DNA from: Oligoflexia bacterium
Lineage (GTDB): Bacteria > Bdellovibrionota > UBA1018 > CAIPTA01 > JAALKR01
DNA: 56,231 nucleotides
NCBI GenBank assembly: GCA_011087955.1
Contig: JAALKR010000011.1
Coordinates: 1 to 56,231 of the forward strand
Direction of reading: 5' to 3'
The notes beneath the pieces are model-generated. The model had not been told where the DNA came from. It searched no databases and worked only from the letters and a program-made list of their open reading frames with translations. The first letter of the stretch is position 1; the number at the start of each line of letters is the position of its first letter. A program made the position numbers and the translations under genes. This document shows positions 41,257 to 56,231 of the stretch, piece by piece.

Positions 41257-42033
41257 ATGCCAAAGGCAATTCTACTCGCTGGCGGACTAGGCACACGACT
41301 TGCGGAAGAAACTTCCGTGAAGCCCAAACCAATGATTGAAATTGGTGGCAAACCTATTCTTTGGCATATCATGAATATTTATGCTTCCCACGGATTCAAA
41401 GAATTTATTGTAGCACTCGGCTATAGAGGCGAAGTCATTAAGGCTTATTTTGAAAACTTCTACCGCTTAAATCACAACCTCTCTATAGACCTTGCTACCG
41501 GCAAAACTACCGTTCACGAAGGTGAGCATAAAGTAGACTGGGCCGTGGACCTTGTAGATACAGGTGAGCTAACGCAAACCGGTGGACGTCTCGGGCGCTT
41601 GCGCGATTGGGTGAATAATGAAACTTTTTTTATGACTTATGGGGATGGCGTTTCCGACATTAATATTAAAAAAGCGTACAAGTTTCATAAGAGCCACGGA
41701 AAACTAGCAACGATTGCAGCGGTGCGACCGTCAGCTCGCTTTGGTGAGCTGGGAATTGAAGACGGGCAAGTAAAAGAATTTAAAGAAAAGCCACAAACGG
41801 AGCAGGGCTGGATTAACGGCGGTTTCTTTGTACTCGAACCAAAAATTTTTGACCTTATTACTGATGATGATTGCATTTGGGAGCGTGAGCCTCTTGAGCA
41901 GCTTGTTAAGGACGGACAGTTAATGTCTTACCAACATAACGGCTTCTGGCAGTGCATGGACACACTCCGAGAAAAGCGCATGCTCGAAGATCTATGGAGC
42001 TCTGGGAAAGCTCCTTGGAAGCTTTGGGATTAA
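41257..42033 (+). CDS. rfbF: Glucose-1-phosphate cytidylyltransferase
   Basis: 258 residues. The nucleotidyltransferase signature is AILLAGGLGTRLAEETSVKPKPM; GKPILWHIM and the MTYGDGVSD metal site fit RfbF. It makes CDP-glucose from CTP and glucose-1-phosphate, starting the CDP-deoxyhexose route. An AGAGG ribosome site precedes the ATG. First gene of rfbF-rfbG-epimerase-rfbH-glycosyltransferase. Confidence 0.95.
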   Translation: MPKAILLAGGLGTRLAEETSVKPKPMIEIGGKPILWHIMNIYASHGFKEFIVALGYRGEVIKAYFENFYRLNHNLSIDLATGKTTVHEGEHKVDWAVDLVDTGELTQTGGRLGRLRDWVNNETFFMTYGDGVSDINIKKAYKFHKSHGKLATIAAVRPSARFGELGIEDGQVKEFKEKPQTEQGWINGGFFVLEPKIFDLITDDDCIWEREPLEQLVKDGQLMSYQHNGFWQCMDTLREKRMLEDLWSSGKAPWKLWD

Positions 42034-42061
42034 CAGCAGTCGATAATAATCGAAGGATTAT

Positions 42062-43054
42062 ATGAATTTTTGGAAAGATAAAAGAGTTTTTATTACTGGA
42101 GCTACCGGCCTCGTCGGCTCGAGCCTAGTAAAGAAATTGATCCATCAAAAGGCTTTTGTTGTCGCGCTAGTGAGTGATGTAAATCCAAACTCAGAGATGT
42201 ATCGCAATGGCACTGCTAATAAGATCACTGTAGTAAACGGTCGCTTGGAAGACTACGTTTGCCTAGAGCGCGCTATCTCTGAGTATGAAATCGACACTGT
42301 TTTTCATTTGGGCGCGCAAGCAATCGTTACAGTTGCGTATCGCAGCCCGCTTTTGACTTTTGAATCCAATATTCGCGGCACTTATAATTTATTGGAGGCT
42401 TGCCGCGTCCACCAGCCATTCGTAAAGCGCATTGTAGTTGCTTCTTCAGATAAGGCTTACGGTGATGTAGACGCATTGCCGTACACAGAAAAAATGCCTC
42501 CAATGGGTCGCTTCCCATATGATGTTTCAAAATCCTGCACAGATTTATTGAGTCGCTCCTATTACGAAACATATGAGTTGCCTACAGTCGTCGCTCGTTG
42601 CGGAAATATTTACGGTGAAGGTGATATTAACTGGAGCCGTATTATTCCGGGTACAATTCGTAGCCTTTGCAATAATGAACAACCGATTATTCGCTCCGAT
42701 GGGAAATTTACGCGCGATTATATCTACGTAAAAGACGTCATAAGCTCCTACATGATGCTTGCCGAACAATTAGAAAACCCGAAGGTAGTGGGAAAGGCAT
42801 TTAATTTTGGGCCAAACAACCCGTACTCCGTAATTGAAGTGGTCGATGGAATTCGCAAAGCAATGAATAAGATGGATATCGGACCAAAAATTCTAGACTC
42901 TGCACAAGCAGAAATTCGCGACCAGCACTTGGATTCAAAAATGGCTACAGAGACTCTAGGTTGGAAACCAAAATATTCTTTGGATGACGGCATTAAATCA
43001 ACGATCCCTTGGTATGAAAAATTTTTGAAAAATTTGAAAGAGACGAAAGTATGA
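42062..43054 (+). CDS. rfbG: CDP-glucose 4,6-dehydratase-like SDR enzyme
   Basis: 330 residues of extended short-chain dehydrogenase type. NAD loop GATGLVGSSLV, a VVASSDKAYGD strand, and the YxxxK pair in FPYDVSKSCTD. The substrate segment RCGNIYGEGDINWSRIIPG matches CDP-glucose dehydratases. It makes CDP-4-keto-6-deoxyglucose from the rfbF product. Its stop overlaps the next gene by 4 bases. Confidence 0.88.
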   Translation: MNFWKDKRVFITGATGLVGSSLVKKLIHQKAFVVALVSDVNPNSEMYRNGTANKITVVNGRLEDYVCLERAISEYEIDTVFHLGAQAIVTVAYRSPLLTFESNIRGTYNLLEACRVHQPFVKRIVVASSDKAYGDVDALPYTEKMPPMGRFPYDVSKSCTDLLSRSYYETYELPTVVARCGNIYGEGDINWSRIIPGTIRSLCNNEQPIIRSDGKFTRDYIYVKDVISSYMMLAEQLENPKVVGKAFNFGPNNPYSVIEVVDGIRKAMNKMDIGPKILDSAQAEIRDQHLDSKMATETLGWKPKYSLDDGIKSTIPWYEKFLKNLKETKV

Positions 43055-43518
43055 TTGATAGTGTAGCAATTCGTCCGCTCAAGGTCATCAAGGATGACCG
43101 CGGACAAATCATGCACATGCTCCGCAATGACGTGGATCATTTCTCCAAATTTGGTGAAATATATTTTTCCCAGGTTTTCCCCGGCCGTATTAAAGCTTGG
43201 CATATCCATAAAGAGATGACCCTCAATTACGCAGTGCCCGTTGGTCGCATTACTATGGTTCTCTATGATAGTCGTAATGACTCCCCTACTAAAGGAGAGT
43301 TAATGGAGATTGATCTTGGAGATGAAAACTATTCCTTAGTGACCGTACCACCGGGAGTCTGGAATGGGTTTGTGTGCAAAGGTAACATGCCCGCACTCAT
43401 TGCCAATTGCGCAGATTTGCCTCACGACCCTGAAGAAATTTCTCGAATGGACGCTTTCGATAAATCCATCCCGTATAAATGGAAGACAGACTATATCAGC
43501 GCAACCTCCCACGGTTAG
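43051..43518 (+). CDS. dTDP-4-dehydrorhamnose 3,5-epimerase-like protein
   Basis: 155 residues of RmlC-like cupin type, with FSQVFPGRIKAWHIHKEMTLNYAVPVG containing the catalytic-type His, and a VTVPPGVWNGFVCKG strand. In this context it likely epimerises the CDP-keto-deoxyhexose, for example at C5 as in the ascarylose route, not a dTDP sugar. That reading comes from its place between rfbG and rfbH. Confidence 0.8.
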   Translation: MIDSVAIRPLKVIKDDRGQIMHMLRNDVDHFSKFGEIYFSQVFPGRIKAWHIHKEMTLNYAVPVGRITMVLYDSRNDSPTKGELMEIDLGDENYSLVTVPPGVWNGFVCKGNMPALIANCADLPHDPEEISRMDAFDKSIPYKWKTDYISATSHG

Positions 43519-43527
43519 GAATATTCT

Positions 43528-44856
43528 ATGAGCGCAAGCGAAAATGCCAACGCCAATACGATACGCAATGAAATTAAAGCCCTTGCTGAAAAATATTTTG
43601 CAGCGAAGTGGCCAGAAAAAGAATTTGAGCCTGGCAAAACGCATGTCCAGGTCAGTGGAAAGGTCTTTGACGAAAAAGATCTCTGCTCCTTAATCGACTC
43701 ATCTTTAGATTTTTGGCTGACTGCTGGACGATTTGCCAATAAATTTGAAAGGCGATTTGCAAAATATATGGACCGCAAGCATTGCCTGCTAGCAAATTCT
43801 GGCTCTTCTGCAAATTTACTAGCCATATCTGCATTAACGTCGGAAAGCCTAGGTGATCGACAATTAAAGCCCGGTGATGAAGTAATCACCGCAGCGGCTG
43901 GATTCCCAACAACAGTGAACCCTCTATATCAAAACCAATTACAACCTGTGTTCGTAGACATGGACATTCCAACGTATAACGTGAATGTCGAGCAACTCAA
44001 AAAGGCTGTCTCCCCTAAAACGAAGGCGATTATTCTTGCTCACACCTTGGGAAACCCATTTAACCTCGACGAGGTTACACAAGTCGCCAAGAAAAATAAT
44101 CTTTGGTTGATTGAAGACTGCTGTGATGCCGTCGGCTCCATCTATGATGAAAAGCTAGCCGGTTCCTTTGGGGATATTGCAACGGTTTCTTTCTACCCTG
44201 CCCACCATATAACAATGGGCGAAGGTGGGGCTGTTCTATGCAATGACGATAAGCTCAAAGTCCTATTGGAAAGCTTTCGAGACTGGGGGCGCGACTGTTG
44301 GTGCGCTCCGGGAGTATCCAACACCTGCCAGAAACGCTATGAGTGGCAACTGGGTGATCTACCTTGTGGCTATGACCACAAATATACCTACGGACATATC
44401 GGCTATAATTTGAAAGCTACGGACATGCAGGCTGCAGTCGGCGTTTCGCAGCTAGAAAAGTTACCTGCGCTTGTAAAAAAGCGGAAAGAAAATTTCAAAT
44501 TCCTTAGGTCTTGCTTGCAAGACTTTAAGAACGACTTAATTTTGCCAGAGGCAACGGAAAAAGCAGATCCATCCTGGTTTGGCTTCCCAATCACAATGAA
44601 AGAGTTTTCTAAGGTAACTCGCAACGATATGGTGCAGTCCTTGGAGCGACAAAAAATTGCTACACGCCTCTTGTTTGCAGGCAATTTGGTACGGCAGCCT
44701 GCTTATAATAAAATGAATCATAAAATTATCGGCGATTTAACAAATGCAGATAGAATTATGAACCACACATTCTGGGTGGGGGTTTTCCCTGGCCTAGGCG
44801 AGGCTGAGCTCACATATATTGCAGAAAATATAGGGAAGATTTTGAATGGAAATTGA
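43528..44856 (+). CDS. rfbH: CDP-6-deoxy-4-hexulose 3-dehydrase (E1, RfbH)
   Basis: 442 residues of DegT/aminotransferase fold. The PLP-Lys position is His226 ([11 protein letters not shown]), as in E1, which uses PMP and a radical C3 deoxygenation. The [2Fe-2S] cluster spacing of E1, CX57CX1CX7C, is met exactly by Cys199, Cys257, Cys259 and Cys267. It removes the C3 hydroxyl of CDP-4-keto-6-deoxyglucose. Its reductase partner E3 (RfbI/AscD type) is not in the window and must be elsewhere. The product would be a 3,6-dideoxyhexose for surface polysaccharide. Confidence 0.94.
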
Positions 44857-45670
44857 TCCGCATGACGCCGAAAAAACAGCTAATCATAAGCGCCTAGCAA
44901 TTTTTATTCCTGCGTTTAATGCAGCAAAAACGATCTCTACTGTTTTGGATCGGATTCCGAATAACCTGTGCGAAAGTGTCGTAGAAATTTTTGTGATCGA
45001 CAATGATTCCACAGACGACACCTCGATAGTGGCGGTCAACTACAAAAAAACTCGCGGCATCCACAACCTGGAGGTCATTAAAAACCCAAAGAACATGGGT
45101 TATGGTGGCAGTCAAAAAATTGCTTACCTACGCTGTATTGATAAAGGCTACGACGCGGTCGCCATGCTTCATGGAGATGCTCAGTACGCCCCAGAGCTGT
45201 TGAGTACGCTTATTCGCCCAGTTATGGATGGTGAGGCGGATATGGTTTTTGGTTCGCGCATGGATGGGAATCCACTTAAGGGTGGAATGCCGATTATTCG
45301 CTATCTAGGAAATAGGGTTTTAACGACGCTACAAAATATCTTCCTCAGCACTAACCTTAGTGAGTTTCACTCCGGCTATCGAATTTTTTCGGTCGACGCA
45401 TTGAAGAAAATACCGTTTGAGAGATTTTCTTCTGACTACCACTTTGATACAGAAATTATTATTTTGTTTGTTGACCAGAAGCTCAAGATCAAAGAAATGC
45501 CGATCCCTACTCATTACGGGGATGAAGAGAACTATGTGAATATATGGGACTATGGAATGAAGGTTTTGATTTCCACATTCTCTTATTTCCTACATCGCAA
45601 AGGAATCCGCCACTCTCGCAATTGGTCTAAAATCATGGATGGCACTTCGCAGCTATCAACTAAAAAATAA
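44846..45670 (+). CDS. Family 2 glycosyltransferase (DPM1-like)
   Basis: 274 residues. GT-A start [20 protein letters not shown], nucleotide-binding IDNDSTDDT and [12 protein letters not shown] with the DxD-like HGDAQ motif. No membrane helices in the C-terminal region, so it is soluble or peripheral. It overlaps rfbH by 11 bases and may transfer the CDP-derived deoxyhexose or make a lipid-linked sugar. Confidence 0.86.
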
Positions 45671-45701
45671 TCCGAAGCAGTAGCGGCCGCCAAAGTCGCA
45701 G

Positions 45702-46733
45702 TTATAAAAACTCTGCCTTATCCTTCACAAGTTTTGTGTAGGTTTTTTCATCAATTTTATAAACCCATGTTCCACGCATTAGGTTAAATCTTTGCGCTCT
45801 ATCTTGAGCTTTGGCCATGGCCTCAATCTTCTCTAAGTCTTCTTTGCTGTCATCTCGTTTAACCACTACTCGACGTGGCATTGAGTCTGCCAGAGCACTA
45901 ACTTTTAAAAAATGCTTGTCTTTCCTTTTTGCCAGGGAAAGTTGATAGCGAATCTGATTTTCTAAATTAACTTTGATTTCATCAGAAAAGTTCAGCCCTG
46001 CCACTTCCGGGTCGGCTGATGAAAAATAGTCTTGAAATCGAATTACACGGAAAGAATGGAAGTATTGTTTCACTTTCTCTTCTTTATATTTCTTTACTTT
46101 AGGGGTAGCTATGATATATTTTTCGCCCTCTTTTTCAAATTCAATATCTGACCTACCCTTAACCGTGATTTTCTCTATTTTCTTTTCATTGACCTTAAGC
46201 AGAACTGTATCAATAAAATCCTTATAAGATGAATTCAACAATAACGAATCGCCAGAAAGGTACACGGCCTTTCCGTCTTCCTTGTACAAATAGTTCCCAC
46301 GCCCCCCCTTACTTGCATTGCCAACTGTAAAAGCCACCGTTCGTTTGTCTTCACCATCAAACACCTCGACAAAAAATTTTCTGCTTGATTTGTTAAGTCC
46401 AAACTTTTCCTTTGCTACCTCACTGGGCCCTCCTGAAACTTTTTCTTTCACTTGAATGCTGGCAATTTTATAAATTAAATTATTCACTTTTTCCGTCGCA
46501 GCCGGATATGACTTGTGGTTTTCAAGTACAAAATGTTCGGAATCACGCACCAAAACAATGTTCTTGTCGCCACTAAAAGACAGGGAGATTTTATGGATTT
46601 TTTCAGCATCCATCCCTTTTATAAAATCACTCCCAGCCACAAGATCCGTGCCTCTTCTGTTTTCAAACACAAAAACAGTGAGCGCGATAATAAACAAGAC
46701 ACCAGTGCTGATGCTAAGTGTTTTTATATTCAT
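45702..46733 (-). CDS. DUF4340-type protein linked to Gld-like ABC transporter
   Basis: 343 residues. One N-terminal membrane helix (about 6-23), the rest probably periplasmic with repeated beta units (IHKISLSFSGDKNIVLVRDSEHFVLEN; KIEKITVKGRSDIEFEKEG), as in DUF4340 proteins. These follow GldG-like genes in many bacteria. The exact function is unknown. Overlaps the GldG-like gene by 4 bases and is the last gene of the ABC operon. Confidence 0.82.
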   Translation of the reverse strand: MNIKTLSISTGVLFIIALTVFVFENRRGTDLVAGSDFIKGMDAEKIHKISLSFSGDKNIVLVRDSEHFVLENHKSYPAATEKVNNLIYKIASIQVKEKVSGGPSEVAKEKFGLNKSSRKFFVEVFDGEDKRTVAFTVGNASKGGRGNYLYKEDGKAVYLSGDSLLLNSSYKDFIDTVLLKVNEKKIEKITVKGRSDIEFEKEGEKYIIATPKVKKYKEEKVKQYFHSFRVIRFQDYFSSADPEVAGLNFSDEIKVNLENQIRYQLSLAKRKDKHFLKVSALADSMPRRVVVKRDDSKEDLEKIEAMAKAQDRAQRFNLMRGTWVYKIDEKTYTKLVKDKAEFL

Positions 46734-48715
46734 ACTTCACCCCCTACACTTTTTAGTACCTTATTCTCTACTGGCTTTTCTTCCTGAGGAGCGCCAAACT
46801 GGCTCATTCTCCACTTCCGACGGTTGGAATACCATATGCCCAGAATAATAACGATTATGGGTATAAAAACTGTATTTAAGAGTTGGAAAAACTTACCTAT
46901 GCCCTCAATGCGCTCTCGGCCAGATCGCTTCACCTCACGCAGCTCCCTCTTTAGTCCAGCGATCTGCTTTGCCAATTGTTTCTTCTTTTTCAGGCCAACA
47001 TTCTGCAAAATAGCAATATTTCCCTCATTCGCTTTTCTTCCCAATTGACTTAACTCCGCCTGAACCTTGGCAATGCTAGCGTTAATTTCTCGAACTTTAT
47101 CTTTTGTCCCTTTTTCTGCTTCAAGTTCAATCGCAGTAATTGCATTAAATGGTCTAGACACCATCCCCTTTGTTCGAACTGAAAGAAGATCAACACTACC
47201 GATTAGCGCTTCCACTGCATTCAAGAACAGCGTAGAATTCTGATTAGCGATTGCTGGCCCCAGGAAACTCCGCTTAAACGCAAACTGATCATTGATAATA
47301 TCTACATCAGCAACTATCACTACCGCTGACTCCTTCTTTGATTCCATTAGGTGCTCTGCTTTCTTCTTTTGCGCTTTAGCTGCCTTAGCTTTTTTCCCTT
47401 TCTTTTCTTTCTTCCCGTCAGGAGGAATCCCGTCAGGATATGCCGTTTTAAATTTACCCACTGATTTATAGGCCATCACAACTGGCTCAGTGCCCTCAGA
47501 AAACTTGCGCCAAAGTATTTGTGGGCGATTAAGCTGAAACCCGCTTGCTGTATAGGAGTTGCCGCGATCTGTTGTTGCAAGCAGCGCGCTATGTTTTATG
47601 CCTTCAACATCTTTTTTGACCAGAGCCCCTGGAAACACCATGGTGAGATTGTTCAACCCCCCCGTAATCGGACTATCATTTCCCTGAGTGCAAGCTTGAT
47701 TACAACGCATAATCGCCAGCAGGCGACCAGGGGGCTGATTGGGATCAAACCTACCCGAGGCACTCAAGTGCTTGTCGCCAGCAAACGTCTTTGGCTTCAA
47801 TTCAATCCCCCATTTTTCCATCAACTTTGCAAACCCTGGATCCGGGGAACTAGAAACTCCACCTGCTGTCGCAACAGACGGATCAGAGATGGCCGCAGGA
47901 TCAACGAATACTAGAAGCTTACCACCTCCTAGCAAGTACTGATCAATAGCGTAATTAAGTCTCTCGGAAAACCCTTTGGGATGAATAACTACTAATACAT
48001 CGGTTCCTGAGATTTGCTCCGAATCAAGAGCTATTTTCTTTACCTCATGAAACTCACGGGCAAGGTTCGTCACAAGCCACGAGTCTTGTACACTTTTTCC
48101 TTGCATCCGCATAATTTGCGCAACGTAAGGACTTACTTCTTCATTAATCACGTCCAACGAAGACAAAACGCCGATTATTTTTTTCTTCGGATTCAAAGCA
48201 GAATATATGAGCTTTGTTAACTCATACTCCGTGTTACCCTTTTGAGCAGGATCAAAGAATTCAATAATTTTTTCAGTCCCCGACTCATTCTCAGCGACTA
48301 TTCCAAAGAAATAAGTCTCTGTCTCTGTGAGATGAAATTTCCGTAGACCATAGGCTAGAGCGTCTTCCTCCTCCGGAGTATCCGGACGAGGGTCGATTAC
48401 CTCAAGCTCAATATTATTCCGTGAATTTGCTACGTAGTCACGCAGCAACTCCCGAATATAGGTAAAGTGATTATTAAAAACCCTTAACCCCTCTGTACCC
48501 TTTTGTGCTGCAGTCTTTGAATAGTAAAGCTTTAACTTAATCGGGGAGTCTAACTTTGCAAGAATAGACTTTGTACCATCGGATAGCGCATACAACCGCT
48601 CTTCAGTAAAGTCTATCTTCACCCTCTTTAATAAAGTCGTACCACTATAGAGCAAGAACACCATAGAAAAGAGACTCAATATTGCACGGAGATAGTTTTC
48701 TTGTTTCTTAGTCAT
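46730..48715 (-). CDS. GldG-like ABC transporter auxiliary protein
   Basis: 661 residues. N-terminal helix (about 9-25), a large extracytoplasmic domain of the ABC_transp_aux type (IKLKLYYSKTA, a DVLVVIHPKGFSERLNYAIDQYLLGGGKLLVFVDP core), a Lys-rich insert (about 435-460), a coiled coil (about 545-605) and a C-terminal helix (about 612-630, NTVFIPIIVIILGIW). In gliding bacteria GldG joins GldF and GldA. Here it may serve gliding, polysaccharide or another envelope process. Ends in a 4-base overlap with the DUF4340 gene. Confidence 0.87.
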   Translation of the reverse strand: MTKKQENYLRAILSLFSMVFLLYSGTTLLKRVKIDFTEERLYALSDGTKSILAKLDSPIKLKLYYSKTAAQKGTEGLRVFNNHFTYIRELLRDYVANSRNNIELEVIDPRPDTPEEEDALAYGLRKFHLTETETYFFGIVAENESGTEKIIEFFDPAQKGNTEYELTKLIYSALNPKKKIIGVLSSLDVINEEVSPYVAQIMRMQGKSVQDSWLVTNLAREFHEVKKIALDSEQISGTDVLVVIHPKGFSERLNYAIDQYLLGGGKLLVFVDPAAISDPSVATAGGVSSSPDPGFAKLMEKWGIELKPKTFAGDKHLSASGRFDPNQPPGRLLAIMRCNQACTQGNDSPITGGLNNLTMVFPGALVKKDVEGIKHSALLATTDRGNSYTASGFQLNRPQILWRKFSEGTEPVVMAYKSVGKFKTAYPDGIPPDGKKEKKGKKAKAAKAQKKKAEHLMESKKESAVVIVADVDIINDQFAFKRSFLGPAIANQNSTLFLNAVEALIGSVDLLSVRTKGMVSRPFNAITAIELEAEKGTKDKVREINASIAKVQAELSQLGRKANEGNIAILQNVGLKKKKQLAKQIAGLKRELREVKRSGRERIEGIGKFFQLLNTVFIPIIVIILGIWYSNRRKWRMSQFGAPQEEKPVENKVLKSVGGEV

Positions 48716-48731
48716 CGCTCAGCTCTCCCTT

Positions 48732-49478
48732 CTAGCTCGCCCGATTCTCTTTTAAAAGAATCATGTTACCATACAGCCAGCAACCAATAGTGACCGCGAA
48801 AAACCATATGTTGCTCATTTGCAAAACACCCCTTTGCATCAACTCAAAGTGATTCAAGACACTCAACGACTCAAATACGTCCACCACAAACTTAGGCGAA
48901 AACGTAGAAATAAAATCCAAAACTGGTGGCGAAGCCGCCATCAGTATCACTGAGCAAGCAACAATAGATAAAATAAAACTAATCACTTGGTTCTTAGATA
49001 ACGCAGAAAAAAAGCATCCAACAGCAAGAAAGCTGCCGGCTACAAGGAATGACCCAAGGTAGCCAAGAAAAATCACTCCCCAATCAGGATCTCCCAGATA
49101 AGCCACAGTGAAGAGAATCGGGAAAGTGCCCAATATAGCGACCGAAATAAAGGCCCAAGAAGCAAAAAACTTCGTCAGCACTGCTTGCCGAATCGTGATA
49201 GGGAGAGTGAACATCAACTCAATAGTCCCGCTCTTGCGCTCTTCTGCCCAGAGGCGCATACCAACGGCAGGAACCAACAATAGAAGCATCCATGGAATAT
49301 AGGCAAAAAAAGACGTTAGAGACGCTTCACGCATAATAAAAAAGCTACCCCGTCCAGGCTCAAACGTAAGATACCCCGTGCCAAACAGGAAAATTACTAA
49401 AAAAACATAGCCAAGAGGAGTCTTAAAATAGGAAGAAAACTCCTTCCAAAACAATTCTTTACACACACGATTAATCAT
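48732..49478 (-). CDS. ABC-2 type permease (GldF-like)
   Basis: 248 residues, six membrane helices. It starts with a short cytoplasmic helix (KELFWKEFSSYFKTPLGYVFLVIFLF) typical of the GldF/CcmB-like group, and has RLWAEERKSGTIELMFTLPIT, a strong family motif. It is the channel partner of the ATPase encoded upstream, with 4 bases of overlap. Confidence 0.92.
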   Translation of the reverse strand: MINRVCKELFWKEFSSYFKTPLGYVFLVIFLFGTGYLTFEPGRGSFFIMREASLTSFFAYIPWMLLLLVPAVGMRLWAEERKSGTIELMFTLPITIRQAVLTKFFASWAFISVAILGTFPILFTVAYLGDPDWGVIFLGYLGSFLVAGSFLAVGCFFSALSKNQVISFILSIVACSVILMAASPPVLDFISTFSPKFVVDVFESLSVLNHFELMQRGVLQMSNIWFFAVTIGCWLYGNMILLKENRAS

Positions 49479-50212
49479 ATCGCCACCCCCTCTATAGGAC
49501 GCCCTGTTGTGATCACACGAAACACATCGTCAATCCTTTGTTTGTCTGACTTTGCCTTCAGCTCACTAGGAGTCCCCTCAAAAAGCTTCTTACCCTCACC
49601 GATAATGATACAACGATCACAGATAGCCTCAACCTCTTCCAATATGTGGGTTGAAACGAGAACCAATTTCTCCCTCGCCAGCTCTTTGATCATTGAGCGA
49701 ACTTCCGCCTTTTGATTAGGGTCCAAACCATCGGTTGGCTCATCGAGGATCAGAACTTTTGGATCATGAATTAAAGCCTGCGCAAGAGAGACTCGTCGCT
49801 TATATCCCTTTGATAAGGTATCAATAATCTGGCCCTGCACAGATTCGAGAGCACACTTCTTAATAATTTCAGCCACTCGATTTTTAATCTCCTCTTGCGG
49901 AACCTCTCTAAAACTTGCAATTTGAGTCAAAAACTCGACGACATACATTTCTTCGTATAAGGGCGCATTTTCTGGCACATAGCCAATTATTTTTTGGGCT
50001 TCAAGCGTATCTGAAACAATAGAGTGCCCACAAACTGACACGTCCCCCATCGTTGGCTCGACAAAGCCAGTAACGATTTTCATTGTAGTTGATTTACCAG
50101 CACCATTCGGACCTAAGAAGCCAAGAACCTCGCCCTGATTGGCTTTAAAACTAATATCCGACACCGCTTTAATATCGTCAAATGACTTTGAAATACTCTT
50201 TACTTCAATCAC
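49475..50212 (-). CDS. ABC transporter ATPase (GldA-like)
   Basis: 245 residues. Walker A LGPNGAGKST, Q-loop YVPENAPLYEEM, signature LSKGYKRRVSLAQAL, Walker B VLILDEPTDGLDPNQ and His switch STHILEE. GTG start with AGGTAGG upstream. First gene of the four-gene GldA-GldF-GldG-DUF4340 operon, about 46 bases after a strong -10 box. Confidence 0.94.
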   Translation of the reverse strand: MIEVKSISKSFDDIKAVSDISFKANQGEVLGFLGPNGAGKSTTMKIVTGFVEPTMGDVSVCGHSIVSDTLEAQKIIGYVPENAPLYEEMYVVEFLTQIASFREVPQEEIKNRVAEIIKKCALESVQGQIIDTLSKGYKRRVSLAQALIHDPKVLILDEPTDGLDPNQKAEVRSMIKELAREKLVLVSTHILEEVEAICDRCIIIGEGKKLFEGTPSELKAKSDKQRIDDVFRVITTGRPIEGVAI

Positions 50213-50388: not shown

Positions 50389-51741
50389 TTAAGAGCTTTC
50401 ATCCATATGAGGATACAATATTTCATAGAATTCAGGGAATGTTTCTTCTAGTGAAGTGCCGCGAGTTTTATCTAAGAGAGCGATATACTCTTGAAATTCA
50501 CAAAATCGCTTGGACCAATCCTCGCTATACATGAACTTAACCATACTTCGTAAGCGTTTGATCCCGTAATCATGCTCAAGAAATTCTTGATTGCCAGCAA
50601 ATCGCTCCTCTAGCCAAACAATAAGTTTCTCCACTTTGTCATGAATCGCATTCTTGACTGGCGTCGGCAGTGTTTTCACATTCAAGTAAGCCGGATTGTG
50701 CACAAAGTGAAAGTTAATTAAACCAGCGCCAAGAGGGTAAGCATTAATTTTTTTGAAATCCTGACTAAGCTTCCATTGGATGAATTCGGGCAAATAATAC
50801 ATATTGAGCGCCTGAACTGAGCACTCCATGGCTACTTCAATATTGCTGGGCGTATTATCTAATGTTCGCAAATTTTCCCCGATATCAGCCCACTTCGAAG
50901 GGTAACGAATATAAGAGTTCATAGCCCCAAAGCTATCCAAACTAAACCCAAAGCGGACGTACTTAAATTTTTGCCAAAGCGTAAGCACCTTTTCCGGAAT
51001 ATAAGTACCATTCGAGTTATAGCGAAGCATAATGTTTTTTGCGTATCCTTGGCGAATGCACTCTTCCAAGAATTCAAAATGTTCTTTTAAGATCAGAGGC
51101 TCTCCGCCGGCAATATGCAGTCGCTGCATATGAGGGATTCGTGACAACAGATCCGACCAGACCTCGGGATTTTTGTACCACTCGTAGGAAGCGCCACCTA
51201 CTCGACCTTCATTATGCCAGCCCATAGTTTCGCGCAAGCGGTCGTCCTTGATTTGAGGATTAATAATTTTCCAATCCTTAATCCATGAACTTGAGTCGTG
51301 GGAGTTACACATCACGCACCTCAAATTACATAAATGACCAAAGCGTAAATCCATATATTGAATTTTCTCCGGCACTGCACCATTTTCTTTAGTGTTAGCG
51401 ACTAGCTCATCGATGCTCACTCGACGAGACCAGAATGCAGTTTCCCAAATTCGTTTTGAATTAACTCCGCTAGTTTCTTCCTTAAAGCATTTTTGGCAAG
51501 AAGGAGGCATTTCTCCTTTCAGCATTTGGACTCGTACGGTCTTTATGTAGTCCGAGTTCCAAAATTTACGTAATCCTGATTCTGTGGAAGCAAGACTCAA
51601 AGACTCCCTGTGCTGGGGGGGGGGATGAGGAGCAACGCAACAAAGCTTCATTTCACCGTTGGTTTTTGTGGAGACGTGGATCCATGGCAAAATACAAAAG
51701 GTCTTACTAACTTTATTGTTTACAATTTCTTTTTTGCTCAT
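50389..51741 (-). CDS. Twitch-domain radical SAM protein, copy 1 (with C10 tract)
   Basis: 450 residues from the ATG at 51741, which matches the start of its near-identical copy at 54124 (an ATG six bases earlier is less likely). The Cys-rich segments typical of a twitch domain come first: Cys16 in FCILPWIHVSTKTNG, Cys34-Cys35 and CQKC (82-85). The radical SAM motif CNLRCVMC follows (138-145), then an AGGEPL strand. Residues 40-42 (three Pro) are coded by part of a run of ten C. It faces away from the other three radical SAM genes. The substrate is unknown. Members of this family often occur in several copies near surface-glycan or peptide-modification genes. Confidence 0.85.
   Translation of the reverse strand: MSKKEIVNNKVSKTFCILPWIHVSTKTNGEMKLCCVAPHPPPQHRESLSLASTESGLRKFWNSDYIKTVRVQMLKGEMPPSCQKCFKEETSGVNSKRIWETAFWSRRVSIDELVANTKENGAVPEKIQYMDLRFGHLCNLRCVMCNSHDSSSWIKDWKIINPQIKDDRLRETMGWHNEGRVGGASYEWYKNPEVWSDLLSRIPHMQRLHIAGGEPLILKEHFEFLEECIRQGYAKNIMLRYNSNGTYIPEKVLTLWQKFKYVRFGFSLDSFGAMNSYIRYPSKWADIGENLRTLDNTPSNIEVAMECSVQALNMYYLPEFIQWKLSQDFKKINAYPLGAGLINFHFVHNPAYLNVKTLPTPVKNAIHDKVEKLIVWLEERFAGNQEFLEHDYGIKRLRSMVKFMYSEDWSKRFCEFQEYIALLDKTRGTSLEETFPEFYEILYPHMDESS
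50912..51009 (-). repeat. 98-bp identical tract, copy A (inverted pair)
   Basis: These 98 bases on the minus strand equal 54901-54998 on the plus strand without a mismatch by my reading, inside a longer stretch of high identity between the two radical SAM genes. The two copies form a long inverted repeat around the segment from about 51.0 to 54.9 kb. Confidence 0.85.
51615..51624 (-). repeat. Run of ten C in the coding strand of the radical SAM gene
   Basis: A G10 run on the plus strand is a C10 run in the coding strand at codons 40-42, near the start of a 450-codon gene. Such tracts slip during replication; a change of one base would shift the frame and end the protein early. The paralogue at 54124 has no such run in the matching region. 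Confidence 0.85.
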
Positions 51742-51951
51742 TGGCATTCCTTCTTGAAGAGGTCAAAATCATGTTACAAGCCGCACTATGCGCACGCAAG
51801 CGCCAAATGAAAAAGTAACAAGTGAAGCGCTAGTCACCATTGGTTTCTTACACTCCAATCACGGCGCAGCTCGCTATAGTCAACCTTTAGCGCTGTAAGC
51901 CTCGACATGCTCTCCAGAGTTTGGCTATGATTGCCTATTGCTAGGGCTTCA

Positions 51952-53046
51952 ATGAGTGATGATTTAAATTTTTCAGACTACGATTTTACCAAAATTCCAT
52001 TCGATCGATTGGTTCGAGTGGGGCAACGATCGCTTTTAGGCAAAGATCTTTTTTGCGTGTCTTGGCTGCTTGGGAGGTTTTGTAATTACCGTTGCACCTA
52101 CTGCTGGCCTTATGGAAGATCGGACAAAAAGGACCATCGGCCCACAGAACTTGTTCTAAGTACTTTGGATGAAATAAAACGCCAGGCGAGAGATCGTGGA
52201 TTCAACTCTTTTCACTTTTCTTTTTCCGGAGGAGAGCCCACGCTTCACCCAGGTTACTTAAAAATTTTGCACCATTATAATGACGATATTAAAAATTGTA
52301 ATTACCAGAGCGTTCATATGACAACAAACCTCTCTGCCGGCATTGGTTGGTTTAAAAAATACGTTGTCGCAACAAAGGATCTGCATAGAGTTAGCATTAC
52401 AGCAAGCTTCCATAAAGAGTTCGCCAACCAGGAGCAATTCCGCGATAAGTTAATATTTCTCCAAGAGAACAAAGTGCAGACTACAATCAATATGGTCATG
52501 GTGCCGGAGCGCTTCGAGTTGCTCTGGGAGGACGCATTGTTTTTTCATGAAGCCGGTTTAAACGTAACTCTTAAACCACAATCTAACAAAACGGCCACAA
52601 AAATTGTTGAGGGCTACACCGAAGGTCAACTAGACCGTTTACAACAAGGAATGCCTCAACGTGACTACACCACTGCGAGACTAAAGAAAAAAAAGCAAGC
52701 CCCTCCACTCATGCAAGTGGAATTTATCGATGACAAGGGTAATCCTTGGTATATGGACCAAGCGGAGCGATTCAACTGTTATGATTTCAATAATTTTAAA
52801 GGCTGGGAATGTAGCGCTGGGTATAGGAGTATTATCATTCGCGAGCCAGACGGTTCAATCAAGCGCTCGTACTCCTGTAATGACGAACCTTTAGGCAATA
52901 TTGAAACTGGCTTCAATCTTTTTCCGACTCCGAAGCTATGCATGACTCCTCATTGCGTAAGTTCTGCGGATTCAAAGATCCCAAAGCGAAAACTAGGCAC
53001 AAAGCTTCCGCTCTGGCCTGGCGATAAAACTTTTGAGGCTCGATAG
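51952..53046 (+). CDS. Radical SAM protein with C-terminal Cys domain
   Basis: 364 residues from the ATG at 51952 (AGGG five bases upstream; a TTG at 51931 would add seven). The radical SAM motif is at Cys44-Cys48-Cys51 (FCNYRCTYCW), with FSFSGGEPTLHP as the SAM-binding glycine motif. The C-terminal part has Cys in ERFNCYDF, GWECSAGY, SYSCND and KLCMTPHC, as in SPASM/twitch auxiliary-cluster domains. It is the first gene of a plus-strand run of three radical SAM genes, overlapping the next by 14 bases if that one starts at 53033. The 204 bases upstream, shared with the divergent copy 1, hold no clear promoter. Confidence 0.85.
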   Translation: MSDDLNFSDYDFTKIPFDRLVRVGQRSLLGKDLFCVSWLLGRFCNYRCTYCWPYGRSDKKDHRPTELVLSTLDEIKRQARDRGFNSFHFSFSGGEPTLHPGYLKILHHYNDDIKNCNYQSVHMTTNLSAGIGWFKKYVVATKDLHRVSITASFHKEFANQEQFRDKLIFLQENKVQTTINMVMVPERFELLWEDALFFHEAGLNVTLKPQSNKTATKIVEGYTEGQLDRLQQGMPQRDYTTARLKKKKQAPPLMQVEFIDDKGNPWYMDQAERFNCYDFNNFKGWECSAGYRSIIIREPDGSIKRSYSCNDEPLGNIETGFNLFPTPKLCMTPHCVSSADSKIPKRKLGTKLPLWPGDKTFEAR

Positions 53047-54127
53047 TTTGTACAAGTCTAGTGAAATTAAGACCGTACATTTGGAGATTACAACGAAGTG
53101 TAATGCAGCTTGCCCGATGTGTTTGAGAACGGTGCAGGGAGGGAAAGTTAACCCTAAAATGCCCCTTACTGAGCTTCATCTTTCAGACATCAAGAAAATT
53201 TTTCCGCTTGCGTTTATAAAACAACTAAATCGAATTTATATGTGCGGAAACTACGGTGACCCGGCTGCTGCTCAAGACACACTGGAGATCTTTGAATATT
53301 TTCGTAACTCCAACCCCAATATTAAGCTAGATATTTTTTCTAATGGATCGATACGCACTCCAGAGTGGTGGGGCAAGCTAGCTAAAATTGTGAATCATGC
53401 CCGCTTTGCCATTGATGGACTGGCCGAAACAAACCACCTATACCGCCGAGGCACTTCATGGAATCGCATTATTGAAAATCTAAAATCCTTTATTGATCAG
53501 GGAGGACATGCAGAATGGGATTTTATTGTTTTTCGGCACAATGAAGATGAACTAGAAAAGGCCCAAGAGCTTGCTAAGAAGCTCAGGGTTACAAAATTCC
53601 ACATCAAGAAAACAGGGCGATTTTTTTCAAATATAAAATCCACAGGAAAAGAGCAGCAAGAAGTTTTTAATAAGGACGGAGAAGTTGAGTATTGTATAGA
53701 AAAGCCCATTAACCCTAAATTCCAAAACAATGCGCTAGAAAAAGAACAAAAATTAATCGAAAAATTTGATGACATGAAATCTTATTTTGATTCCACTCCT
53801 GTAAATTGCAAAGTGGCAAAAGAGAAAAGTCTTTTTATAAGTGCCGAAGGCTTGGTCTTTCCATGTTGTTGGACAGGAAATCAAATGTATCCTTGGTATT
53901 TCAAGGATCGTGGTGGTGAAATTTGGAGTCACATGAAGCATTACGATTTCGATAAAGAAAAAATTTCTGCTATCGATAACCCAATTGCAAAAATTATTGA
54001 CGGCCCATGGATTCAATTTTCCTTTCCCAACTCATGGAAGAAGCCATGCTTGGAAGACGGGAAACTTCGAACCTGTGCGAAGACCTGTGGCACAGATTTT
54101 GACCCCTTTAAGGACCAATTCCAATGA
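53033..54127 (+). CDS. Twitch-type radical SAM protein
   Basis: 364 residues. Radical SAM motif Cys23-Cys27-Cys30 (KCNAACPMC). A C-terminal Cys region has VNCKVAKEK, PCCWTG, KPCLEDG and TCAKTC, fit for one or two further clusters. It is related to the protein at 6393-7532. Only TTG starts are available before the motif: 53033, or 53048 with TGAGG nine bases upstream and one base after the previous stop. The second is slightly better supported. The stop overlaps the next gene by 4 bases (ATGA), so translation is coupled. Confidence 0.83.
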   Translation: MRLDSLYKSSEIKTVHLEITTKCNAACPMCLRTVQGGKVNPKMPLTELHLSDIKKIFPLAFIKQLNRIYMCGNYGDPAAAQDTLEIFEYFRNSNPNIKLDIFSNGSIRTPEWWGKLAKIVNHARFAIDGLAETNHLYRRGTSWNRIIENLKSFIDQGGHAEWDFIVFRHNEDELEKAQELAKKLRVTKFHIKKTGRFFSNIKSTGKEQQEVFNKDGEVEYCIEKPINPKFQNNALEKEQKLIEKFDDMKSYFDSTPVNCKVAKEKSLFISAEGLVFPCCWTGNQMYPWYFKDRGGEIWSHMKHYDFDKEKISAIDNPIAKIIDGPWIQFSFPNSWKKPCLEDGKLRTCAKTCGTDFDPFKDQFQ

Positions 54128-55548
54128 GTGAAAAAGAAGTTGTAAATAATAAAATTAGTAAGACTTTTTGCATTTTGCCATGGATCCACGTCTCCACAAA
54201 AACCAACGGTGAAATGAGGCTTTGTTGCACTACTTCTGCATCCAGTGCAGGAAAATCAAACGATAAGAAATTTGGTGGTAAGCTGGGGGTTTTTCGAAGT
54301 GACACAGGAAGCCCATTAAACCTTGCGTCTGCAGGATTACTGAAGTCCTGGAACTCAGATTACATGAAGACCGTGCGGAGCCAAATGCTTAAGGGAGAGA
54401 TCCCCTCCTCTTGCCAAAAATGCTTTAAGGAAGAAGCTAGCGGAGTTAATTCAAAACGAATTTGGGAAACTGAATATTGGTCTCGTCAAGTAAGCATCAA
54501 TGACCTAGTCGCTAACACTAAAGAAGATGGTGCAGTGCCAGAGAAAATTCAATATATGGATTTACGCTTTGGTCATTTATGTAATTTAAAATGCACAATG
54601 TGTAGCCCCCACGACTCAAGCTCATGGATTAAGGATTGGAAAACTATTAATCCTCAAATCAAAAATGATCACTTGCAGGGGATTATGAGCTGGGACAATG
54701 AAGGGCGAGCAGATGGTGCTTCCTATGAGTGGTACAAGAACCCTGAATTTTGGTCGGACCTATTGTCGCAAATCCCTCATATGCAGCAACTATATTTTGC
54801 CGGTGGAGAGCCTCTGATCTTAAAAGAACATTTTGAACTCTTGGAAGAGTGCATTCGCCAAGGATACGCAAAAAACATTACGCTTCGCTATAACTCGAAC
54901 GGTACTTATATTCCGGAAAAGGTGCTTACGCTTTGGCAAAAATTTAAGTACGTCCGCTTTGGGTTTAGTTTGGATAGCTTTGGGGCTATGAACTCTTACA
55001 TTCGTTACCCTTCGAAGTGGGCTGACATCGAAAAAAATTTGCGAGCATTAGACAATACGCCCAGCAATATTGAAGTAACCATGGCCTGTGCAGTGCAGGC
55101 CCTCAATATGTACTATCTGCCTGAATTCATCCAATGGAAGCTTAGTCAGGATTTTAAAAAGATTAATGCTTACCCCCATGGCGCTGGCTTAATTAATTTC
55201 CACTTCGTGTACCATCCGGCAAACTTAAATGTAAAAATGCTGCCGACGCCAGTCAAGGATGCGATCCATGACAAAATGGAGAAGTTTATTGTTTGGCTAG
55301 AGGAACGATTTGCCGGCAACAAAGAATTCCTCAAGAACAATTACGGAGTCAAACGCTTACGAAGTATGGTTAAGTTCATGTATAGCGAGGATTGGTCCAA
55401 TCGATTTTGTGAATTTCAAGAGTATATTGCTCTCTTAGATAAAACTCGCGGCACTTCACTAGAAGAAACGTTCCCTGAGTTTTATGAAGTATTGCGTCCG
55501 CATATGGATAAAGCCTATTTCAGCGTAAGAGGCGATACAGAAATTTAA
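54124..55548 (+). CDS. Twitch-domain radical SAM protein, copy 2
   Basis: 474 residues, about 80 % identical by eye to the product of 50389-51741 after the first 75 residues and at the N-terminus. It has Cys16, Cys34-Cys35, CQKC (97-100), the radical SAM motif CNLKCTMC (153-160) and FAGGEPL. A region of about 30 residues (about 37-70) differs from copy 1 and lacks the poly-Pro codons; the C-terminal end is also longer. It ends with 4 bases of convergent overlap with the oxygenase gene. Confidence 0.87.
   Translation: MSEKEVVNNKISKTFCILPWIHVSTKTNGEMRLCCTTSASSAGKSNDKKFGGKLGVFRSDTGSPLNLASAGLLKSWNSDYMKTVRSQMLKGEIPSSCQKCFKEEASGVNSKRIWETEYWSRQVSINDLVANTKEDGAVPEKIQYMDLRFGHLCNLKCTMCSPHDSSSWIKDWKTINPQIKNDHLQGIMSWDNEGRADGASYEWYKNPEFWSDLLSQIPHMQQLYFAGGEPLILKEHFELLEECIRQGYAKNITLRYNSNGTYIPEKVLTLWQKFKYVRFGFSLDSFGAMNSYIRYPSKWADIEKNLRALDNTPSNIEVTMACAVQALNMYYLPEFIQWKLSQDFKKINAYPHGAGLINFHFVYHPANLNVKMLPTPVKDAIHDKMEKFIVWLEERFAGNKEFLKNNYGVKRLRSMVKFMYSEDWSNRFCEFQEYIALLDKTRGTSLEETFPEFYEVLRPHMDKAYFSVRGDTEI
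54901..54998 (+). repeat. 98-bp identical tract, copy B (inverted pair)
   Basis: Partner of 50912-51009 in inverted orientation. Flanking bases differ only by scattered transitions (for example gaac/gaat just before, ttaca/ttata just after). This points to recent duplication or gene conversion between the two genes. Confidence 0.85.
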
Positions 55549-56075
55549 TCGTAGTATTTGGCCTCAACCCATTTCTCAGGCAACTTCATTGACCGTGAAA
55601 GGTGTAATGCCTCGCTCGCAATGAGTTTATGTTCACCAAATTCAGATAGAGGGCCTCGCCAAGGTGATCCAATACAAATAGTCATTTTTTCCTCAGGGGA
55701 CGACTCAACTGCATGCGCATGACCACCATCTAATACGTAGACTCGATATTTATTCAGGACATAAACCTTTTCAAAATGCTCATCAAAAAAATACAAGCCG
55801 TCAATTTTGCCGCTCAATGCCACTCGCAACTTCTCTTGCATTGAACCCATTTCATCAGGACTTGTATCTATGTGCGGAGCGAGTGATTTTCCCGGCTCGG
55901 TTCGTAAGATAAACACTCTTGCCTCAGACGGCAGCAGTGGGAATATTTCTTTTTCTAAGTAACGTTGAAGCCTTGGAGTATTTTTCCCAGCCTCGCTCCA
56001 AACAAATGGTTCAGCATGGCTCATTGTATCCGTACCCATGCGGCCACCGAGATACGCCCAAAAGTTGTGGATCAT
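55545..56075 (-). CDS. Aspartyl/asparaginyl beta-hydroxylase-like oxygenase
   Basis: 176 residues of cupin type. Iron ligands are visible as His68-x-Asp70 (LAPHIDTSP) and a later His in GGHAHAVES (119 or 121). RVFILRTEPGKSLAPH is the family entry strand, and the arginine near SPWRG may hold 2-oxoglutarate. Such proteins hydroxylate Asp/Asn side chains or related substrates. It converges with the radical SAM genes and overlaps the last by 4 bases; a gene upstream on its own strand ends 3 bases before its ATG, so it is probably part of an operon that continues to the right. Confidence 0.78.
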   Translation of the reverse strand: MIHNFWAYLGGRMGTDTMSHAEPFVWSEAGKNTPRLQRYLEKEIFPLLPSEARVFILRTEPGKSLAPHIDTSPDEMGSMQEKLRVALSGKIDGLYFFDEHFEKVYVLNKYRVYVLDGGHAHAVESSPEEKMTICIGSPWRGPLSEFGEHKLIASEALHLSRSMKLPEKWVEAKYYD

Positions 56076-56078
56076 AGC

Positions 56079-56231
56079 CTAGGCAACTCCCTCTTGGTTG
56101 GATGAACTTTCTACTAAAACTCCGTCCTTGTAAAGGGCCCCTGATAAAAGTTTATCAATATCTTGGTAGCCTCTTATTAAATGCCATCACTTCTGCTGCA
56201 GTGACACTGCCTGCTCCTCTACTTGCTGCCG
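56079..56231 (-). other. End of an upstream gene, apparently interrupted by in-frame TGA
   Basis: On the minus strand a reading frame ends at 56079-56081 (TAG), 3 bases before the oxygenase ATG, which is normal operon spacing. Its last 34 codons (ending QEGVA) look coding and lack any ATG, GTG or TTG start. The same frame to the window edge has one TGA, after which it stays open. It may be a gene that ends at this TGA plus chance sequence, a gene with a nonsense change or a base error, or one that is frameshifted. The window edge prevents a decision. Confidence 0.35.

Follow-up and report, generated by a model that had tools for sequence, protein, structure and literature searches.

The DNA analysed here (the window) is a whole contig, C10, of 56,231 nucleotides from a 1.8-Mb assembly that is 88% complete, and its last 5.8 kb, up to the contig end at 56231, carries five open reading frames, P1 to P5. 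A preliminary description made from the sequence had reported four clustered radical SAM genes with an oxygenase-like gene, and the five frames were recovered at the same coordinates, with intact genes and Pfam Radical_SAM matches for the first four and an oxygenase-type predicted fold for the fifth. P1 (50389..51747, minus strand) and P4 (54124..55548, plus strand) encode N-twitch radical SAM proteins of family NF033640, P2 (51952..53046, plus) a radical SAM protein whose C-terminal Cys region is SPASM-like and which is the best-conserved member of the P2-P3-P4 trio, P3 (53048..54127, plus) a radical SAM protein whose C-terminal Cys region is twitch-like, and P5 (55545..56075, minus) a protein of predicted 2OG/Fe(II)-oxygenase fold. 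The frames of P2 and P3 were listed as 51931-53046(+), from a TTG codon at 51931, and 53033-54127(+), from a TTG codon at 53033; judged by their relatives, the likely starts are ATG 51952 and TTG 53048, respectively. Because of these likely starts, P2 and P3 abut without overlapping, and the overlapping ends described for three radical SAM genes are thus retained for P3 and P4 (4 nt) but not for P2 and P3.

Membership of P1 to P4 in the radical SAM superfamily is indicated by PF04055 scores of 35, 49, 42 and 38 bits, respectively, against a gathering score of 29.5, together with the CxxxCxxC motif. The additional cysteine clusters noticed before were also found, as alignments showed CxxxCxxC and further Cys residues to be kept in relatives of the radical SAM proteins, including C-terminal ones in P2 and P3. 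The SPASM profile PF13186 gave P3 16.4 bits, under its cut-off of 21.5, and did not match P2, while NF033640 (N_Twi_rSAM) gave P1 410 and P4 428 bits against a cut-off of 170, covering model positions 1-397 of 398. In a PDB sequence search, the P4 family had no match, and P2 and P3 matched generic radical SAM enzymes alone. A scan of genome contigs with P4 as the query gave a single, weak locus.

The count of four genes was right but concealed a duplication, the four representing three families plus one copy. P1 and P4 share 80% identity, and their genes make up an inverted repeat of 1.19 kb (88% complementary) enclosing P2 and P3, with arms of 1,188 nt at 50391..51578 (P1 copy) and 54332..55519 (P4 copy), and a second stretch of 143 nt at 51628..51770 and 54095..54237 extends the repeat upstream of both start codons. 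P1 lacks about 20 conserved residues near its N terminus and retains the cluster cysteines. The dN/dS ratio between the two copies was about 0.22 (0.090/0.417, NG86), and both have therefore been kept by selection after duplication; P1 arose later as a copy of the N-twitch enzyme and remains under purifying selection. N-twitch radical SAM proteins scored above the cut-off in 115 of 340 genomes of the phylum, and single genomes have as many as about 50 candidate places, a striking family expansion. Four more such genes lie as two divergent pairs on another contig of the same assembly (C21; L011 8449-14032), where they adjoin a second Gld-type ABC transporter operon, as P1 adjoins a Gld-type ABC operon in the window.

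P5 has no match in Pfam, NCBIfam or PHROG, and so none to PF05118, the Asp/Asn beta-hydroxylase family. Its AlphaFold model, built on an alignment including 33 viral homologues, is a double-stranded beta-helix (mean pLDDT 78). Its top-ranking PDB matches are proline hydroxylases and other 2OG oxygenases, led by L-proline cis-4-hydroxylase (E 3.5e-5), and the HxD motif and the distal His are invariant in the family. By beta-helix and HxD...H, P5 is predicted to have the 2OG/Fe(II) oxygenase fold with its N terminus missing; the Asp/Asn-hydroxylase-like oxygenase first proposed thus keeps its fold and motif but not a PF05118 match. Relatives carry about 50 additional N-terminal residues, among them a nearly invariant Arg, and no upstream frame in the window supplies them, so that P5 looks like a shortened copy that is possibly inactive and may not work. 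Homologues of P5 exist in seven other genomes of the phylum and lie within about 6 kb of P2 or P4 in one alone (L090), making P5 a loose member of the set in which it had been placed.

Neighborhood comparison had been named as the way to refute a common role of these genes, and the comparison did not refute it. When loci around the closest phylum relatives of P4 were gathered (n=18) and their genes clustered into families, P4 and P3 families were present in 18 loci each and P2 in 16, while the next-commonest family reached 8; because of a fusion protein, the P3 cluster also absorbs glycosyltransferase (GT)-like proteins, and close orthologues of P3 occur in 14 of the 18. A separate search with the P2 alignment found P2 in 20 of 330 phylum genomes, and a hand count of the 17 readable P2 loci, which span several families, placed P4 nearby in 16, P3 in 14 and both in 13. 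Identity to phylum relatives was 60-74% for P2, 53-59% for P4 (P1 left out) and 46-57% for P3. The recurrence of the P2-P3-P4 linkage in many genomes therefore puts the island beyond chance.

The same genome holds eight matches to P4 altogether and a second, diverged set on contig C27, consisting of a P3-like, an N-twitch, a P2-like and a methyltransferase-like gene and a P3-GT fusion. The fusion (L010 10387-12294) joins a P3-type radical SAM domain to a GT-A-like domain and lies beside a menaquinone operon and uvrA. A further radical SAM gene of the P3 superfamily, P6 (6393..7532, plus), stands alone in the window, 44 kb from the island, and encodes a protein 27% identical to P3. Homologues of P6 at 53% identity have an N-twitch and a P3-like gene as neighbours in genome G184 and are located 2.6 kb from P2 in genome G234. 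The suggestion that this gene belongs to the same set is supported insofar as it draws on the same gene pool, but it occupies a separate locus and its membership is uncertain.

What the preliminary description had missed is that the entire island block is common to large tailed phages, T4-like ones from metagenomes. Scans of IMG/VR recovered 308 stretches with P2, at least 560 with P4 and 76 with P5, and tail, neck or terminase homologues were present within about 10 kb in 58 of 118 P2 loci. One locus (L137) is unambiguous: a tail sheath gene is followed by an N-twitch, an aminotransferase-like, another N-twitch and a reductase-like gene, then by P2 and the genes for tail tube and terminase. 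Among 80 viral loci recruited with P4, P3 was found in 75, a GT-like gene in 71 and a methyltransferase-like gene in 68. Many IMG/VR loci have no tail genes in reach. Identities were taken from loci with tail genes, and the best values to the window proteins there were 62% for P2, 54% for P4, 50% for P1, 46% for P3 and 24% for P5; P5 reaches 41% in L304, where we read one frame as tail-fibre-like. We rejected the assumption that every IMG/VR contig is viral: L127, filed as viral, is flanked by genes of bacterial appearance (a lipoprotein and exported proteins) and is probably mis-binned, and L201 is perhaps bacterial too. Among 50,697 deposited phage records, no homologue of P2 or of the GT-like partner was found, and deposited phage records gave none for P5 either.

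In the window, the phage-shared block begins exactly at P1, and P1 to P5 all have viral homologues. Genes to its left (44846-50212) had no homologue in the viral loci compared, and no prophage is recognizable on that side; on the right, the contig ends at 56231. The homologues are carried among the tail genes of T4-like phages; the window copy is chromosomal. In a tree of P2, bacterial and viral rows interleave with three to four changes between bacterium and phage, at least two of them forced, counted without direction. In a relative (G179), pheS/pheT adjoin the cassette, and the genes that come after it are of kinds usual in the variable regions of phages; after pheS/pheT, nearly all genes of this stretch (L107 9060-20000) have phage homologues, one a weak structural-like match, and the block looks like an insertion from phage into chromosome. 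Two large phage islands (L226 and L304), with a carbamoyltransferase, several GT-like, many 2OG-oxygenase-like, desaturase-like and sugar-aminotransferase-like genes, resemble entire small-molecule pathways.

Two further proteins recur beside the trio. The first, of 230-310 aa, has no Pfam model and is predicted to adopt a GT-A fold (pLDDT 92.6), with WrtF, PcManGT and SunS among its fold matches at low TM-scores of about 0.3-0.46; the second is a methyltransferase-like protein (family c3) assigned from motifs alone. Reductase-like, aminotransferase-like, carbamoyltransferase and 2OG-hydroxylase genes are variable extras. Pfam Glycos_transf_2 was found in 11 of 123 neighbours from 17 loci. Among 123 control genes, which came from other stretches of same-phylum genomes, mostly the same ones, it occurs in one at most, the bound reflecting absence of this profile among the control families listed (Fisher p 0.005 at the bound of 1/123). 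The island in the window has neither a GT-like nor a methyltransferase-like partner gene, and those on C27 could act in trans. By our reading, a surface-polysaccharide region with apparent CDP-sugar genes and a GT2 gene (41257-45670) lies 5 kb from the island. The glycan link comes from neighbouring genes, and these may share variable islands for reasons unrelated to glycans.

We propose that the island represents, in chromosomal copy, a tailoring cassette that is exchanged with phages and has a glycan or a protein of the surface as its target, a reading to which we give an even chance. It builds on the co-conservation, phage sharing, enzyme families and folds of P5 and the GT-like partner observed here, and both the neighbours and the location in tail regions agree with a target that is a glycan or a surface protein. 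The cassette would move between the host's phylum and large T4-like tailed phages, with P2, P3 and the N-twitch P4 as its core and a GT-A-fold glycosyltransferase-like and a methyltransferase-like protein as usual partners. As to its chemistry, we infer that the three radical SAM enzymes would work in sequence on one substrate by hydrogen abstraction to give an unusual unit (rearranged, deoxygenated, cross-linked or methylated), which the glycosyltransferase would install on a surface structure; in bacteria, this may be lipopolysaccharide, capsule, a pilus or an adhesin, and in phages the host surface or the tail fibre. More tentatively, and on balance doubtful in its full form, the trio may be a dedicated assembly line, equipped with a GT-A-type transferase and a methyltransferase of its own, residing in tail operons of large T4-like phages and repeatedly exchanged with bacteria, that makes a novel surface or tail decoration possibly deciding adsorption.

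Alternatively, the trio could directly modify a normal-sized surface or virion protein encoded elsewhere, such as a pilin-like protein, an adhesin or a phage tail protein, with the hydroxylase and the glycosyltransferase finishing the decoration. Twitch/SPASM enzymes often modify peptides, SunS among the fold matches of the GT-like partner is a peptide S-glycosyltransferase, and phage P2 directly adjoins tail tube or tail-fibre-assembly genes. Proteins that we read from sequence as prepilin-like also adjoin the trio in three loci (L099, L100 and L106), the N_methyl match in L106 being weak (E 0.035). Such pilin-like neighbours, however, occur in just these 3 of 18 loci, and in marine T4-like phages many genes of the variable region have nothing to do with tail proteins (PMC7029224), leaving direct protein modification rather unlikely.

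An improbable third reading has a modified nucleotide or a small nucleoside-like compound as the product of the cassette, for instance in phage DNA hypermodification. It would account for phage neighbours such as the carbamoyltransferase, PP-loop ATPases and aminotransferases and for a nucleoside-antibiotic hydroxylase among the fold matches of P5, but the bacterial trio is chromosomal and lies beside glycosyltransferases, and none of the bacterial loci contributes a member to the carbamoyltransferase cluster.

A RiPP pathway, with a small precursor peptide as the substrate of the radical SAM enzymes, has its support in matches of P1 to P4 to several RiPP maturase profiles, all weak and far under cut-off. 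Conserved small frames had been suggested as neighbours to look for; among 260 small intergenic ORFs in the 18 loci, however, no group was common to different loci, and the island stretch in the window has just five, of 24-36 codons. Because no conserved small ORF, and hence no conserved precursor gene beside a maturase, was found, a cis-encoded RiPP is unlikely, and we regard a RiPP pathway in general as quite improbable. Of the earlier idea of a modification system, the conserved radical SAM set and the lack of a visible substrate gene are supported, but not a RiPP with a nearby precursor. Finally, the genes might serve unrelated pathways, brought together by chance or by collecting in variable islands, as differing gene order and orientation among loci and the mostly separate location of P5 might suggest. 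This is very improbable, given that P4 is near P2 in 16/17 readable loci of bacteria belonging to several families and that 75/80 viral loci have P3 near P4.

Returning to the phage-exchanged tailoring cassette, we found no description of the P2-P3-P4 trio in the literature, and the fixed trio, its partners and its bacterial copies are new. Radical SAM genes are plentiful, unexplained cargo of aquatic phages, and a co-conserved trio that is also chromosomal provides a defined minimal set for expression and assay, along with bacterial hosts permitting deletion. If surfaces or tail proteins are indeed decorated, unusual radical chemistry would be tied to phage-host recognition.

Among known groupings, P1 and P4 are members of NCBIfam NF033640 well over its cut-off, a sequence family without assigned function whose definition does not include the linked P2 and P3 partners. 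Marine T4-like pelagimyophages carry radical SAM cassettes inserted in a host recognition cluster, a variable region that also holds tail fibres and glycosyltransferases, and an Asp/Asn beta-hydroxylase was reported as one of their core genes (Zaragoza-Solas et al. 2020, PMC7029224). In the isolate Mosig EXVC030M, we found that the tail fibres are accompanied by two Asp_Arg_Hydrox genes, by several genes of MoaA-like type, and by aminotransferases and a carbamoyltransferase. The likeness thus lies in radical SAM cassettes of T4-like phages accompanied by tail genes and glycosyltransferases, whereas a fixed trio and bacterial chromosomal copies were not described there (PMC7029224). Campylobacter phages CP220 and CPt10 have an interchangeable block of five radical SAM genes whose function was not given (PMC2853527). 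Homology to their records is limited to P3 (25%), with no match for P2 or P4, but the module resembles the cassette described here in being a swappable radical SAM block with sugar-transferase-fold proteins.
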